Below, piece by piece: positions 13,903 to 45,903 of a stretch of 64,000 nucleotides of DNA. Within the stretch, counting starts at the first letter, position 1; each line of letters starts with the position of its first letter. The stretch lies in the NCBI GenBank assembly GCA_016217545.1, contig JACRHT010000004.1, positions 124,001 through 188,000 of the forward strand, given 5' to 3'. This stretch comes from Opitutia bacterium (GTDB lineage Bacteria > Verrucomicrobiota > Verrucomicrobiia > Opitutales > Opitutaceae). The notes below the pieces were generated by a model. It saw nothing but the letters and a program-made list of their open reading frames with translations, ran no database searches and was not told the origin of the DNA. A program made the translations under genes and the position numbers.

Positions 13903-14625
13903 TCAGGGCTTCCGCACCTCGATGAAGGCGGTGATCACCGGCCGGTTGCGGCCGTAGCACCAGTTGCGTTCGGCGAAATCCGGCGCGCGTTTTTCCGAAA
14001 CGACCGGATACGGCGCGAACAACCGCTCGAGTTCCGCCAACGTGAAATACCGCACGCCATCCGCGTAGCCTTTCCCGTCGCGGTCGCAGTCGGTCGTGAT
14101 GAGCAAGCTGCCGCCGGGTTTCAGACAGCGATACATCTCCGCCAGCGCGCGTTCGATCGCGGGAATGTGCTCGATCACCGAGATGCTGACGATCGTGTCT
14201 AGCGAGTTGTCCGCGTAGGGCATCGCGGTGAGGTCGACGTTGCGGATGTCGAGCCCCGGCGCGGCACCGAGCATGGCGCGACGCCAGCGCCAGAACGGCG
14301 CCTCGTTCGGCTTGCGCGGCAGGACGCGGAGCGCGCGCAGCACGCCCTTGCGCAACCGCGCGCCGTAGACATCGGACACGACGACACGTTCGTAACGCTC
14401 CGCGAGCCACAGGCCGAGGTAAGTGTTGAACGCGCCCGTATCGAGCACCGCGCCGTGCGGATGGCCGGCCGGTGGGAGCCGGCGCAGCACCTGCCACAAC
14501 TCCCAGTCGCGCATCCGCAGAGGATACCGATAGCCGTCCCCCACCCGCGCGCGGATGAATGCATCGTAATCACGCAGCATCGCATCGCATTCGCCCCAAA
14601 GTTCGTCGCGCTCAAAGAACTTCAT
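13903..14625 (-). CDS. Class I SAM-dependent methyltransferase
   Basis: A 240-residue protein with a Methyltransf_11-type Rossmann core: motif I is AVLDTGAFNTYLGLWLAE, an unusual variant in which GxGxG is replaced by a GAFNTYLG loop. It is followed by an acidic residue after strand 2 (VVSDVYG), motif II with LTAMPYADNSLDTIVSISVIEHIP, and KPGGSLLITTDCDRDG. The last part (YFTLAELERLFAPYP) is the usual cap region. The substrate is unknown. The N-terminal FFERDELWGECDAMLRDYDAF stretch may form a substrate lid. It stands between aspS and a secreted hydrolase-like gene on the same strand without tight coupling. Confidence 0.8.
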   Translation of the reverse strand: MKFFERDELWGECDAMLRDYDAFIRARVGDGYRYPLRMRDWELWQVLRRLPPAGHPHGAVLDTGAFNTYLGLWLAERYERVVVSDVYGARLRKGVLRALRVLPRKPNEAPFWRWRRAMLGAAPGLDIRNVDLTAMPYADNSLDTIVSISVIEHIPAIERALAEMYRCLKPGGSLLITTDCDRDGKGYADGVRYFTLAELERLFAPYPVVSEKRAPDFAERNWCYGRNRPVITAFIEVRKP

Positions 14626-16466: not shown

Positions 16467-16563
16467 GCCGCCGAGCACGTCAGGTCCAGCGGCGCGCGGC
16501 AATCCTGCAACTCGGACGGACTCGTGCGATTGGAATTGGGTTCAGGCGAGAATCGTCGAGACG

Positions 16564-16642
16564 AAGGTGGAGCGCGTTTCCCCCAACGCGCTGATGAATT
16601 CTCGCTCTCGGCAAGCGCGTTGCGGTCAACGCGCTCCACCTT
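16564..16642. repeat. Dispersed palindromic repeat (GGTGGAGCGCGTT family), copy 1
   Basis: Two arms in opposite orientation: AAGGTGGAGCGCGTT at the left and AACGCGCTCCACCTT at the right (16628-16642), with the partner AACGCGCT also following the left arm. The same sequence occurs as an inverted pair at 32478-32555 and as a single arm inside a gene at 43618-43645. It fills most of the gap between gpmI and the secreted hydrolase gene. Confidence 0.9.
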
Positions 16643-18678: not shown

Positions 18679-19059
18679 GGATGCGTGAGCCGCGAGCAAA
18701 GCGGCCGGGGAACCGCGGAAAGGTGGTCGCCGCCGTCCCGGCGGCGACAAACTACTGCCGCCTGCGTGGCGCCGCCGAGGACGTCGGCGCCCACCTGCGC
18801 TGCCGCCTCCTCACGCGCATCCCCACGCCGTGCTGGCAGCGTGAGTTCTTGTTGGTAGGGCGGGACCGCTGGGCCCGCCGAGAGCGCGATGCCACCCACA
18901 CAGCGAGTCCCGCGGTCCCGCCCTGCCGGCTCGGCGTCTGCGATCGCGCACCGCCGCTGCAGAGCAAGCCTTCCCCGCATCCTTTGCCCGGGCCACCGCA
19001 CCGGCTGCCACCCGGTTGACTTCGCGGAAGTTTGCGCCACGTCTGGAGCGCCACACGCC
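18679..19059. other. Intergenic region with palindromic repeat, before hemH
   Basis: 381 bp without a credible gene. It contains the large palindrome at 18854-18927 and otherwise GC-rich sequence in which I see no terminator with a T-run, no tRNA and no clear promoter. Confidence 0.6.
18854..18927. repeat. Dispersed palindromic repeat (GGTAGGGCGGGACCGC type)
   Basis: Left arm GGTAGGGCGGGACCGC at 18854-18869 and right arm GCGGTCCCGCCCTGCC at 18912-18927, complementary with one mismatch, 42 bases apart. The design (GGTAGGG plus a self-complementary block) resembles the repeats at 22945, 35521 and 42149 but the sequence differs. Confidence 0.85.
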
Positions 19060-22975: not shown

Positions 22976-23184
22976 CGTCCCGCATTCCCCGCCTGCGCCC
23001 GCCGTAGGCAGCGCGCTCGCGCGCGCGCCCCAGGACTCGCGCTCACTCGTCACCTCAGCACGCCGAATTCCCCCGGAATTAGCCCCGGCACACCTCCCCA
23101 CGCGGGTTCTGATGACGCGGCGGCGGTTCAAATTTTCCTCGCGCAAACCCCCGCGCGCCGCACCGTCCTTTTGTCATAAGCGCA

Positions 23185-30661: not shown

Positions 30662-30837
30662 CGGGAAAACCATCACGCCCGGGCCGAACGACGAACCGGC
30701 GACGCGATACCCGAAGCAACTCCGCCCGACCCGGCGGCGCAAGTCGATTGGTGCACGCACGGGCCGTTCCGGGAAGTTCCCGCGCTTGATAAATCGGATT
30801 GGCGGCCTGCATCGGAGCCCGCAACCTCCGCTCCGCC

Positions 30838-31380
30838 GTGGCCGCCCAGAAAAAATCCCGCCGTTCCGCCTCGCCCAAGCCCGCCCGCCTCGCTTGGGGC
30901 GCGATCAAGTTGTTCGCGATGGACGTCGACGGCGTGCTGACCGACGGCACCGTGCGCATCCACTCCGACGGCACGGAATCGAAGAATTTCTCCATCCTCG
31001 ACGGCATGGGCCTCGTGCGCCTCCGCAAAGCCGGCGTCGCGCTCGCGTGGATTTCCGGCCGCGCCTCGGGTGCGACCACCGCGCGCGCTACCGAGCTGCA
31101 GATTCCCCACCTCATCCAAGGCCGCACCGACAAGCTCGTCGCACTCCAGGAACTCGCCGCTCAACTCGGCCTGTCCGCCGCCGAAGCCTGCTACATGGGC
31201 GACGACGACATCGACGCCTCCGCCATCGCGTGGGCCGGCATCGGCGTCGCCCCGCGCGAAGCGATGCCCGCCGCGCTGAAGGTCGCCAAATTCATCCCGC
31301 CGCGCGCCGCCGGCCACGGCGCCGTGCGCGAAGTATGTGAACAAATCCTCGCCGCCCGCGGTCGGAAGGCAGCCTCGTGA
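30838..31380 (+). CDS. kdsC: 3-deoxy-D-manno-octulosonate 8-phosphate phosphatase
   Basis: A 180-residue C0-type HAD phosphatase that removes phosphate from KDO-8-P in lipid A-core synthesis. Seen: catalytic Asp29/Asp31 in MDVDGVLTDG, the ISGRASG motif II region, a Lys in TDKLVAL and GDDDIDASAI as motif III. The GTG at 30838 is preferred because it gives the normal short N-terminus; an in-frame TTG at 30799 is less likely. Its stop overlaps the GTG of lptC (GTGA), so it is the first gene of the LPS export operon. Confidence 0.92.
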   Translation: MAAQKKSRRSASPKPARLAWGAIKLFAMDVDGVLTDGTVRIHSDGTESKNFSILDGMGLVRLRKAGVALAWISGRASGATTARATELQIPHLIQGRTDKLVALQELAAQLGLSAAEACYMGDDDIDASAIAWAGIGVAPREAMPAALKVAKFIPPRAAGHGAVREVCEQILAARGRKAAS

Positions 31381-31904
31381 GTTTTTTCGCGCGCTTCTCC
31401 CTCGCCTTGTCATCGCGAGGCCCGCAACGCGGGCCGTGGCGATCCAGCTGGATGGCCGCGTCGGTTCGCTGCGCGACCCTCCTCGCCATGACAGGAGGAA
31501 CTTGGCTCTCCGCTCCCGCCCAGACGAGCACGCGCATCGCCAACGACGCCCCGATCGTGAACTTCCGCCTGCCCACGTTCACGCCCGACGGCTTCCGCCA
31601 GTGGCTCGTCCGCGGCACCGAGGCGCGCCTGATCTCCTCGAAGGAAATCGACGTTCGCGAGCTCACCCTGACCGTCTTCACCGCCGATGTGCAGGACCGC
31701 ATCGACACGATGCTGCTCAGCCCCGCGGCCACCATTTACACCGACACGCAAATCGCCACCGGCCCGAGCACGATCCGCGTGCTGACCGACGCCCTCGAGG
31801 CCACCGGCGAGCAGTGGACCTACGACCACCGGGAGAAAAGGGTTTCCATGCGCAAGAACGTGCGCGTAACGTTCCGCGCCGAATTGAAGAACCTGCTGCA
31901 ATGA
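31377..31904 (+). CDS. lptC: LPS export protein LptC-like, with a repeat-encoded insertion in its N-terminus
   Basis: 175 residues. The C-terminal 120 residues form an LptC/LptA-like beta-jellyroll (VNFRLPTFTPDGFRQWLVRGTEARLISSKEIDVRELTLTVF...). Position between kdsC and lptA, with overlaps on both sides (GTGA, ATGA), supports LptC, the bitopic partner that hands LPS from LptB2FG to LptA. The N-terminus is odd: after MSFFARFSLA about 31 residues (LSSRGPQRGP...LLAMTGG) are translated from a dispersed palindrome, and then TWLSAPAQTS continues. Removal of the insert would still leave a short hydrophobic signal. Whether the insert disturbs membrane anchoring cannot be told from sequence. Confidence 0.8.
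   Translation: MSFFARFSLALSSRGPQRGPWRSSWMAASVRCATLLAMTGGTWLSAPAQTSTRIANDAPIVNFRLPTFTPDGFRQWLVRGTEARLISSKEIDVRELTLTVFTADVQDRIDTMLLSPAATIYTDTQIATGPSTIRVLTDALEATGEQWTYDHREKRVSMRKNVRVTFRAELKNLLQ
31407..31497. repeat. Dispersed palindromic repeat inserted in the lptC coding sequence
   Basis: A large palindrome. The outer arms are TTGTCATCGCGAGG at the left and CCTCGCCATGACAGG at the right; inside are GGCCCGC/GCGGGCC, GATCCAGCTGGAT and smaller stems. It is of the type TCAT(C/T)GCGAGG...GGCGATCCAG found between genes in many bacteria. Here it is wholly inside lptC and leaves the frame open. Confidence 0.88.
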
Positions 31905-32449
31905 CGATGCCCCGCCTCGCTCTCCTCCTCGCCGCCCTCGCCGGCACGCTCCTCGCGCAAAACGCCGAGACGCAGCCCACCGTCATCACCAGCGACAACT
32001 ACGACGGCCGCAGCACCGACGCCGAGATGACGTCGATCTTCGACGGCCACGTCGTCGTCACCGGCACGAATCTCAAACTCACCTGCGACCGCCTCGAAGT
32101 CGTGGCCATGCGCAGCAAGACCGACCCCACCGCGACCGTCGCCAAGCTCGAACGCTTCAAGTCCCTCATCGCCATCGGCAACGTCCACATCGTCCAGGGC
32201 GACCGCGAAGCCGCGTGCGGCAAGGCCGTCGTGCTGCCCGGCGACAACAAGATCACGCTGAGCGACCGCCCCGTCGTCACCGACCGCGGCGCCGGCTGGA
32301 CCTACACCGGCGACGAGCTCCTGCTCCTCCGCGGCGAGCGTCAGGTGCGCGGCACGAACGTCCGCATCGTCGGCCCGCCGGTGAAGGACCTCGGTTTCGA
32401 CAAGGACAAGAAAGTCGAAGGCGCGCCGGAGGCACCGAAGCAGCCGTGA
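31901..32449 (+). CDS. lptA: LPS transport periplasmic protein LptA-like
   Basis: 182 residues with a signal peptide (MTMPRLALLLAALAGTLLAQ) and an OstA/LptA beta-jellyroll: VITSDNYDGRSTDAEMTSIFDGHVVVTGTNLKLTCDRLEV, then AIGNVHIVQGDREAACGKAVVLPGDNKITL. LptA forms the periplasmic bridge for LPS between LptC and LptD. The ATG overlaps the lptC stop (ATGA). A repeat-filled gap of 151 bp separates it from lptB. Confidence 0.88.
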   Translation: MTMPRLALLLAALAGTLLAQNAETQPTVITSDNYDGRSTDAEMTSIFDGHVVVTGTNLKLTCDRLEVVAMRSKTDPTATVAKLERFKSLIAIGNVHIVQGDREAACGKAVVLPGDNKITLSDRPVVTDRGAGWTYTGDELLLLRGERQVRGTNVRIVGPPVKDLGFDKDKKVEGAPEAPKQP

Positions 32450-32477
32450 ATCGAACTTCGACGAAAGCCGGCGGCGG

Positions 32478-32555
32478 AAGGTGGAGCGCGTTGACCCCAA
32501 CGCGCTTCCCGCGCACGTCGACCTACCAGCGCGTTGGGTTAAACGCGCTCCACCT
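32478..32555. repeat. Dispersed palindromic repeat (GGTGGAGCGCGTT family), copy 2
   Basis: Left arm AAGGTGGAGCGCGTTGACC (32478-32496) with CCAACGCGCTT, and right arm AGCGCGTTGGG...AACGCGCTCCACCT ending at 32555. Same family and same inverted-pair layout as 16564-16642. It lies within the lptA-lptB interval, so any operon transcript contains it. Confidence 0.9.
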
Positions 32556-32600
32556 CGCGAATACGTTTTCAGTCCGGCCGCAAGCACCGACCCTACCCGC

Positions 32601-33347
<747 letters not shown>

Positions 33348-35408: not shown

Positions 35409-35520
35409 GCACCGCGCTCTCTCGCGGCTTGTCGGTGATCGCCGCCGTCCCGAAGGCGAGAATCATCCGCCTCGCGCGGAAAACCGCGTGTGCTCCACGA
35501 AGGCCCGCAAGGTTGCCGGT

Positions 35521-43603: not shown

Positions 43604-45903
43604 GAATCGTCTTCGCCAGGTGGAGCGCGTTGACCCCAACGCGCTCTTCTTTCGCTCCGATCATCACACTCATCTCGGCGCTTTTCGCCTTCGCATCGCT
43701 CTCCGCCCAACCGGCCAACGCCCCGCGTCCGCCACCGCACCTCGCCTTCGCCTACCCCGCCGGCGCGATGCGCGGAGCGACCGTCACGCTCACTCTCGGC
43801 GGCGAACATCTCGCCGACGCCACACTCGTTCACCTCAACGGCCCGGGCATCAGCGCACGCATCACCGGCTACGAGCGCCCGCTGAACCAACGCGAGGCCG
43901 TCGACCTCCGCGAACAAGCCGAGCAACTCCGCAACAAACGCCGCTATCATCCCAACCAGTTCACTGCCGCCGACGCGAAGAAACTCACCGAAGTCCAGGA
44001 CACCCTCGCGCGCCGTAACCCGAACCCCAAAACGCCCGCGCTCGCCGAATCCGTCACACTCGAGCTCACTGTCGCCGCCGACGCTCCGCTCGGCGCCCGC
44101 GAACTCCGCCTCGCCACAACCACCGGCCTCTCGAATCCCCTCGTCTTCGAAGTCGGCACGCTCCCCGAAATCACTCCGCCCGTCGTCACCGCCACCTCCG
44201 CCGGCCAGCGCAAGGGCGCACAACAGACCGCGACCCAACGCAGCGCGCCCCTCGACGTCACGCTCCCCGCCATCGTCAACGGCCAGATCCTGCCCGGCGA
44301 AATCGACACCCTGCGTTTCACCGCCCGCCGCGGCCAGCAACTCACCTGCGTCCTCCACGCGCGCGCCCTCATCCCTTACCTCGCCGACGCCGTGCCGGGC
44401 TGGTTCCAAGCCGTGCTCCACCTCCGCGACGCACACGGCCGCGAGATCGCCTTCAACGACGATTTTCAATTCCGCCCCGATCCCGTCATCGGCTGCGAGA
44501 TCCCCGCCGACGGCACCTACGAACTCGAAATCCACGACGCCATCTACCGCGGCCGCGAGGATTTCGTTTACCGCGTCACCCTCGGTGAATTGCCCTTCAT
44601 CCGCAGCGTCTTCCCCCTCGGCGCCCCGCGCGGCCAACCCGTCACGCTCGCGCTCACCGGCTGGAATCTCCCCGCCCCCACGCTCGAATTGCCCGCGCCC
44701 ACCTCGCCCGCCGGCACGATGCTCCTCTCCGTCCGCCGCGACGCTCACCCCTCCAACCAGATCCGCTTCGCCATCGGCGACACACCCGAGATCACCGAGC
44801 CCGCGCAACCCGCCACGCCGCCGCCTCTCCTTCCCCTGCCCACCGTTGCCAACGGCCGTATCGCCGCGCCCGACGAGCGCGACACCTATCGCTTCACCGG
44901 CCACGCCGGCCAGCCAATCGTCGCCGAAATCTTCGCGCGCCGCCTCGACTCCCCGCTCGATTCGCTCCTCGAACTCCACGCGCCCGACGGCCACCACCTC
45001 GCGCGCAACGACGACACCGAGGACAAGGCCGAAGGCCTCCTCACGCACCAAGCTGACTCGCGCCTCGCCACCACGCTGCCCGCCGATGGCGTCTATACAC
45101 TCACCGTCGCCGACACCCAGCACCGCGGCGGCCCCGAATTCGGCTACCGCCTCGCGGTCCACACCGCGGCGCCCGATTTCGCGCTGCGCGTCACGCCTTC
45201 CGCCGTGAACCTTCCCGCCGGCGGCAGCGCGCTCGTCACCGTCTTCGCGCTGCGCCACGACGGCTTCGACGGCCCCATCGACCTCGCCCTCGACGCGCCG
45301 AACAACGGCCTCCGCCTCAGCGGCGCGCGCATCCCCGCCGGCGCCGACTCCGTGCAACTCACCCTCAGCGCTCACCCCAGCCTCGCGCCCAGCGCGCCGC
45401 TCCCGCTCGCGCTCCACGGCACCGCCACCCTCGCCGGCCGCTCGGTCACGCACGCCGCAGCCGCTTGCGACGACACAATGCAAGCCTTCCTCTGGCGCCA
45501 CCTCGTGCCCGCCGCGCAGTGGCTCGCCCAAATCACACCGCGCGCGCCCGGCCTGCGCATCGCCTCGCCGGAAATCGCCCGCCTCGCGCCCGCCCAACCG
45601 CTCACCGTGAAAATCGAGCTCGCTCCGCCAAGCCCCGCCTACGACGCGCTCGCCGCCGAACTCATCAACCCGCCGCCCGGCCTCTCCATCACCGCCTCGC
45701 GCCTGCGCGGCCGCACGCTCGAGCTCACGCTCACCGCCGAATCACTCCCGCCCGCCGGCCAGCGCGCGGGCAACCTCATCTTTTCGATCAGCGGCACGCG
45801 CGCCAATCGCAGCGCCAAAGCCGACACCAAGAACGCCGCCAAACCCCGCCCCCTCGGCCTAGCCCCCGCCTTGCCCTACGAATACGTCACCGCTGCACGC
45901 TGA
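43600..45903 (+). CDS. Secreted protein with pre-peptidase C-terminal (PPC)-type domains
   Basis: 767 residues, start ATG 43600 overlapping the DUF1501 stop. The signal peptide core is FAPIITLISALFAFASLSAQPA, but the preceding residues ARWSALTPTRSS are encoded by a dispersed repeat. The mature part carries beta-sandwich modules: an N-terminal IPT-like domain (AYPAGAMRGATVTLTLGGEHLADATLVHLNGPG) and PPC-like domains (VNGQILPGEIDTLRFTARRGQQL...; NGRIAAPDERDTYRFTGHAGQPIVAEIFARRL with LEIHDAIYRGREDFVYRVTLG). Third member of the DUF1549-DUF1501 operon, as seen in planctomycetes. Likely periplasmic or surface binding protein. Confidence 0.85.
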   Translation: MRIVFARWSALTPTRSSFAPIITLISALFAFASLSAQPANAPRPPPHLAFAYPAGAMRGATVTLTLGGEHLADATLVHLNGPGISARITGYERPLNQREAVDLREQAEQLRNKRRYHPNQFTAADAKKLTEVQDTLARRNPNPKTPALAESVTLELTVAADAPLGARELRLATTTGLSNPLVFEVGTLPEITPPVVTATSAGQRKGAQQTATQRSAPLDVTLPAIVNGQILPGEIDTLRFTARRGQQLTCVLHARALIPYLADAVPGWFQAVLHLRDAHGREIAFNDDFQFRPDPVIGCEIPADGTYELEIHDAIYRGREDFVYRVTLGELPFIRSVFPLGAPRGQPVTLALTGWNLPAPTLELPAPTSPAGTMLLSVRRDAHPSNQIRFAIGDTPEITEPAQPATPPPLLPLPTVANGRIAAPDERDTYRFTGHAGQPIVAEIFARRLDSPLDSLLELHAPDGHHLARNDDTEDKAEGLLTHQADSRLATTLPADGVYTLTVADTQHRGGPEFGYRLAVHTAAPDFALRVTPSAVNLPAGGSALVTVFALRHDGFDGPIDLALDAPNNGLRLSGARIPAGADSVQLTLSAHPSLAPSAPLPLALHGTATLAGRSVTHAAAACDDTMQAFLWRHLVPAAQWLAQITPRAPGLRIASPEIARLAPAQPLTVKIELAPPSPAYDALAAELINPPPGLSITASRLRGRTLELTLTAESLPPAGQRAGNLIFSISGTRANRSAKADTKNAAKPRPLGLAPALPYEYVTAAR
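43618..43645. repeat. Dispersed repeat (GGTGGAGCGCGTT family), copy 3, inside a coding sequence
   Basis: AGGTGGAGCGCGTTGACC followed by CCAACGCGCT, identical in its core to copies at 16564 and 32478. Here it is a single module and codes for RWSALTPTR in the n-region of a signal peptide. Confidence 0.88.

Follow-up and report, generated by a model that had tools for sequence, protein, structure and literature searches.

A dispersed palindromic repeat, element A, occupies the 5' end of lptC in the 64,000-nucleotide stretch of DNA analyzed here (the window). The explanation that best accounts for this arrangement, and that we consider probable on the sequence comparisons below, is that a probably mobile palindrome came to lie in the start of the gene, where it is translated in frame and contributes to the N-terminal export signal of LptC. 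Element A would be translated whole, from the GTG at the kdsC stop, or in its second half, from a start within the element. It would be tolerated because the LptC N terminus should need no more than a hydrophobic stretch and an n-region that is positive and does not fold; GC-rich palindromes would often present a reading frame that is open and Arg-rich, and the end of this one (..CATLLAMTG..) would rebuild the hydrophobic core of LptC. Several unrelated REP families would likewise have landed in lptC of related lineages. The nearest relatives of the window genome (G000) do carry other palindromes at the same place in lptC, a finding that goes beyond the earlier note on this DNA. The features concerned are as follows.

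30799 to 31380, forward strand: kdsC (KDO-8-phosphate phosphatase, TIGR01670)
31377 to 31904, forward strand: lptC, with its GTG start over the kdsC stop; 175 aa, of which residues about 60-166 make up the LptC jelly roll
31377 to 31379, forward strand: preferred lptC start, GTG; an NTGA overlap with kdsC is seen in 54 of 109 genomes
31407 to 31495, forward strand: element A, a CGTC/TGTC-tagged palindromic repeat, head-to-head dimer; equals lptC codons 11-40
31407 to 31409, forward strand: alternative lptC start, TTG, the first codon of element A
31408 to 31446, forward strand: unit 1 of element A, with TGTC tag, ATCGC/GCGAT outer stem, inner hairpin and CCA tail
31449 to 31493, reverse strand: unit 2 of element A, inverted and diverged; reads ..CATLLAMTG.., much of the hydrophobic core
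31452 to 31454, forward strand: alternative lptC start, ATG inside element A; would yield MAASVRCATLLAMTGGTWLSAPA-QT
31488 to 31490, forward strand: ATG at the end of element A; leaves no signal peptide
31901 to 32449, forward strand: lptA (PF03968), with an ATGA overlap with lptC
32476 to 32562, forward strand: family G palindrome in the lptA-lptB spacer, dispersed and unrelated to element A; a neighbor, not part of it
32601 to 33347, forward strand: lptB (TIGR04406)

Element A is a CGTC-type REP dimer built on a palindromic unit of 39 nt. Its outer arms are exact (TTGTCATCGCGAGG at 31407-31420 and CCTCGCCATGACAGG at 31481-31495), and the stretch has a folding energy of -53.4 kcal/mol (z = -4.0). 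A blastn search of G000 gives 29 matches, which represent 26 distinct places including the lptC copy. A covariance model of one unit, with 22 aligned units as input, finds both units in the window (unit 1 at E 2.4e-19 on the forward strand, unit 2 at E 8.8e-6 on the reverse) and yields 32 matches in G000 at E <= 0.01, adding one clear new place (L361) for a total of about 27. At least one of the weakest matches to this model, L366, lies in a coding region, looks like chance and was set aside. Both dimers and single units occur among the copies. In 25 units taken from the 26 places the tag is TGTC in 21, CGTC in 3 and TGCC in 1, and most have the CCA tail. The stem consists of 5 bp, an internal loop and a further 7 bp, closed by a 3-nt loop; at its base, columns 5-36 are AU in 21 of 22 units and columns 6-35 are UA in all 22. 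Across 22 distinct units 98.1% of the stem cells pair, and 17 cells are changed on both sides, against a shuffle mean of 3.3 and a count reached in 0 of 500 shuffles. The stem shows compensatory changes across copies. An Rfam search of the window and a blastn search of PLSDB plasmids with element A each return 0 matches, and a literature string search with TCATTGCGAGG brings up unrelated papers only. We infer that element A is a miniature palindromic repeat and probably mobile. That it is instead a chance palindrome or an assembly artefact is scarcely credible: we found no point in support, and against it stand the repeat copies, the E value of 2.4e-19 and the separate assemblies of relatives, which have the same arrangement with other repeats.

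The gene that hosts the repeat belongs to the order kdsC, lptC, lptA, lptB, hprK. Its product scores below cut-off with the LptC profiles (18.1 of 21 bits for PF06835, 24 of 38 bits for TIGR04409), and a profile search of PDB sequences with it gives no LptC match. With Foldseek, ranks 1-5 are all LptC (top 6mit_C at E 3.0e-6; 4b54, 6mjp, 3my2). Judged by predicted fold and by the operon kdsC-lptC-lptA-lptB, the protein is a divergent LptC, as the earlier note had named it. In the AlphaFold model, residues 60-166 form a confident jelly roll (pLDDT > 90) and residues 1-44, which include element A, mostly have pLDDT < 50; element A sits in the signal-peptide region, outside the folded domain. E. 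coli is described as viable with an LptC that has lost its N-terminal TM domain, and with a malE-lptC fusion (PMC4986956).

The GTG at 31377 shares four bases with the kdsC stop (GTGA), and lptC overlaps lptA by ATGA, so the claim that the gene overlaps both neighbors was correct. The reading frame is open through element A, which begins exactly 10 codons past the GTG and lies wholly within lptC, again as first described. With the start of lptC bound to the end of kdsC, repeats that at other junctions would be classed as intergenic would come to lie inside the gene. The NTGA overlap, counted over the 109 genomes in which the kdsC stop was located, extends to the close relatives G006, G007, G005 and G009. 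Translation from this GTG is predicted to yield the stretch SFFARFSLALSSR. The hydrophobic stretch of LptC in the window is largely encoded by element A, and its core is the weakest of seven, with a best 12-residue mean of 1.09 against 2.2-3.0. On a home-made hexamer coding score trained on 30 window ORFs, the first 10 lptC codons score -0.03 and element A -0.58, as compared with 0.79 for the remainder of the gene; neither the first 10 codons nor the element is coding-like by this measure. Choice of frame by positive charge is not significant (p 0.09 and 0.06).

The earlier note had held that the start could not easily be moved. This did not survive inspection: TTG 31407, ATG 31452 and ATG 31488 are all in frame, and only the last leaves no signal peptide. 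Translation might therefore begin inside element A, at TTG 31407 or ATG 31452, leaving 10 or 25 codons untranslated, in which case the element would supply both a start codon and a new leader. We regard this as unlikely though worth serious weight, and it is a variant of the export-signal explanation rather than its opposite. The two codons are present in frame, MAASVRCATLLAMTGGTWLSAPAQ resembles a plausible signal peptide, and the same genome offers an apparent parallel at lpxA and perhaps another at a gene for a GDSL hydrolase. Weighing the other way, G006, G007, G005 and G009 all retain a GTG over the kdsC stop, the NTGA overlap recurs in 54 of the 109 genomes, and the palindromes in G007, G015, G074 and G004 contain no such codon. 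Of the earlier proposal that about 31 residues were added to the export region, the in-frame N-terminal position stands, while full translation is not compelled given the starts within the element. Most likely, as far as can be read from the sequence, at least the second half of element A is translated in the window, and possibly all of it; its translation and its function as an export signal are both predicted.

A different view would make the palindrome an untranslated spacer or RNA hairpin that controls lptC expression, with the true start after it. The strong fold, the compensatory changes across copies and the intergenic position of most copies would all suit such a role, and a similar case has been argued for N-terminal repeats of other species (PMC3733652), where many intragenic REPs at N termini are suspected, with a warning, to reflect misannotated starts. 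We nonetheless consider it very improbable, since the sole later start in the window, ATG 31488, leaves MTGGTWLSAPAQ and no signal peptide, and since four relatives with other palindromes have no suitable later start.

LptC is found in 52 of 57 genomes by single-sequence query and in 194 of 200 genomes of the family by profile; within the genus it is found in 11 of 12 other genomes, and its leader varies from species to species. Leaders were parsed in 127 genomes, of which 48 were tested for repeats, 13 of these having been picked for long leaders; G008 (no LptC match) and G026 (frame trouble at the locus) were left out of the counts. Over 50 lptC 5' regions an inverted-repeat score alone could not tell inserts apart from the GC-rich background, so dispersal within the own genome was adopted as the criterion for an insert. 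The joined queries scored 9-16 candidates per genome, which means that low-copy repeats could be missed.

By this criterion, 7 of the 48 genomes have a dispersed palindrome at the lptC leader. The sister of G000 is G007: over the LptC core, LptA and the final 160 residues of KdsC the two are 93.2% identical, and G006 and, farther out, G001 branch outside the pair. The LptC leaders of the two sisters are nevertheless unrelated in sequence. All four genomes have a palindrome at this place, and three families are involved: A in G000, B in G006 (33 matches in its own genome) and in G007 (21 matches), and C in G001. Family D is found at the leader in G004 (10 matches), and families E and F in G015 and G074, each from another genus of the family. 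All six families, A to F, are open in frame at lptC. Elsewhere among the relatives, for example in G005, G003 and G009, the leader has no such palindrome, which agrees with the earlier expectation that the insert should be absent in some. Six different families point to no fewer than six acquisitions; the presence of B in both G006 and G007 may go back to a single inherited event. Elements A and B stand at the same 28-nt offset from the lptC GTG, and the first 28 nt of lptC (31377-31404 in the window) are unrelated to those of G007 at identical length in operons otherwise 93% identical at the protein level. As these 28 nt differ almost wholly between the two genomes, the case does not amount to a clean insertion at a known empty site.

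In four of these genomes translation of the palindrome is hard to avoid. G015 and G074 have no in-frame ATG, GTG or TTG between the element and the conserved domain, and in G007 and G004 the in-frame starts after the element occur only within the hydrophobic core. In none of the four does an ATG, GTG or TTG after the element leave a positive leader together with a full hydrophobic core. Given a canonical start and an exported LptC, the element would have to be read. The net charge of the leaders before the hydrophobic stretch ranges from +2 to +7; for G015, the predicted leader peptide is NRADPGSRGRRPRSGLTEAGYIR. In G006 and G000 translation could begin within the element, which would still leave at least part of it read, and for G001 a start after element C is possible.

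Whether lptC is a favored site depends on how common such repeats are at gene starts generally. At the starts of lptA, the next gene and one that also encodes an exported protein, a dispersed palindrome is present in 0 of 27 genomes. The difference from 7 of 48 at lptC has a Fisher p of 0.037, for genomes that are related and include the 13 chosen for long leaders; with G030 and G074 set aside it is 6 of 35 against 0 of 26 (p 0.029), again among related genomes. Because of this relatedness the excess at lptC over lptA is only suggestive. In G030 (C181, 161-256) some 90 nt after the lptC stop are repeated at 98-100% in eight other contigs; this repeat is IS-like and was not judged a palindrome, and other weak matches at lptA starts look like Leu- and Ala-rich signal-peptide codons.

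The background repeat density of G000 is high. At least six more repeat stretches, from families B, C and G, lie in the window (blastn E <= 0.01). Family G has 65 blastn matches in G000, with further window copies at 16563-16642 and 43612-43645; a C-like pair and further C-like and B-like REP units lie at 18721-18796, 35434-35459, 23004-23027 and 14331-14361. The repeats at lptC may thus reflect no more than the rate for any gene junction in REP-rich genomes, with no special niche, and we give this nearly an even chance. Besides the further stretches in the window it draws on the weak lptA comparison (7 of 48 against 0 of 27, p 0.037, from non-independent genomes) and on the stretch before lpxA, where A is likewise present in G000 and C in G007. 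Less easily fitted to it are the position of the lptC repeats in coding frame and the finding that the adjacent species G001, G006, G007 and G000 all carry one, from three families. Our tentative proposal, which we put at somewhat under an even chance, is that in Opitutaceae the leaders of LptC and of other exported proteins are colonized time after time by unrelated REP families, which may displace each other there, so that the n-region would be a niche for mobile palindromes.

By the hexamer coding score, about 3 of the 27 places of element A are in coding sequence (lptC, L070 and L082), and all three are leaders; the search for other copies that the earlier note had suggested thus finds them mostly outside genes. 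L070 encodes a GH43 protein whose leader is element A and whose start overlaps the upstream gene. L082 encodes the GDSL hydrolase, with element A in the same frame as in lptC; its start options are GTG 1354 and the element's own TTG only. By eye, the leader of this gene (1354-2805) also has an apparent second palindrome (GGTAGG..CCTACC) upstream of A. At L081 (722-1612, G000) lpxA likely begins at the final ATG of a copy of A; in G007 (L315) the stretch before lpxA holds a C repeat, making this a second recurrent spot beside an LPS gene. For the other families and RAYT genes, 34 of 60 loci do not touch any scored ORF, and among the 26 overlaps many disappear once the next start is taken. A clear case inside a gene is the copy of element E at L320, which lies in the linker of a dihydrolipoyl acyltransferase, near 190, between Pfam domains that end at 177 and begin at 213. 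In G074 (L297, 1217-2473) element F provides the only early ATG and the n-region of an exported-looking protein (MTAEKKRRDADGGHRPPLQ..), which matches no Pfam family.

In-frame palindromes as such are already known, from the Rickettsia RPEs and from intragenic REPs including those of Opitutus terrae. What is new is that unrelated families have settled in one export-signal region repeatedly and independently. N-terminal palindromes outside Rickettsia have in many cases been set aside as wrong start calls (PMC3733652). The gene lptC, essential in E. coli, offers several independent cases; in most of them the start is coupled to the gene before it, and in four there is no alternative start. Such a gene provides a clean test of whether selfish repeats become protein, and it hints at why they persist in the export signal in particular. 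If the niche proposal holds, selfish DNA would serve as an exchangeable source of signal-peptide sequence and, at times, of start codons. With element A, CGTC-type repeats are also seen in a host that is probably verrucomicrobial; this phylum is not one of the five given for these repeats in PMC3733652.

Families B to E are REPs, since their copies flank RAYT transposase genes: B at L287, C at L312, D at L295 and E at L336 each have copies on both sides of a Y1 (PF01797) RAYT gene. Element A has no copy at any of the 30 PF01797 matches, of 37, that were examined as loci, and CGTC repeats are described as apparently without a dedicated transposase (PMC3733652). That paper describes both GTAG and CGTC REPs and equates the R. 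conorii RPE-4 with CGTC-4 and RPE-6 with CGTC-1. Element A has the features of the CGTC superfamily (terminal CGTC/TGTC, A-T stem base, CCA tail, head-to-head dimers). The published CGTC families 1-4 have an 8-9 bp stem and a 4-5 nt loop, which element A does not fit, so it is not filed in any of them.

The likeness to Rickettsia palindromic elements drawn in the earlier note holds for kind, since element A shares with RPE-4 and RPE-6 the CGTC/TGTC tag, the AT stem base, the CCA tail and head-to-head dimers, and is likewise a dispersed palindrome read in frame in a protein gene (for A, as predicted). RPE insertion in frame is summarized in the review PMC10969869. The likeness fails for distribution: a large share of RPEs is reported in ORFs, whereas element A is mostly intergenic, with about 3 of 27 places coding. 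Its in-frame copies, moreover, are in export signals, its stem is longer and interrupted, and its host is Opitutaceae-like; the resemblance drawn here is one of description. Among intragenic GTAG REPs the highest number is given for Opitutus terrae (PMC3733652, section 15), probably of the same bacterial family, and these are translated in frame, as is predicted here. That account puts its emphasis on DNA-repair genes and regards many of the N-terminal cases as misannotated, and its intragenic-REP text does not name LptC or export signals. A search of the open-licence PMC literature found no report of palindromes in LptC leaders. A further published parallel in PMC3733652 is recB in two Xanthomonas species, which has different REPs at about the same site, much as lptC does; there two species are involved, and at lptC six families over seven genomes, in the leader.
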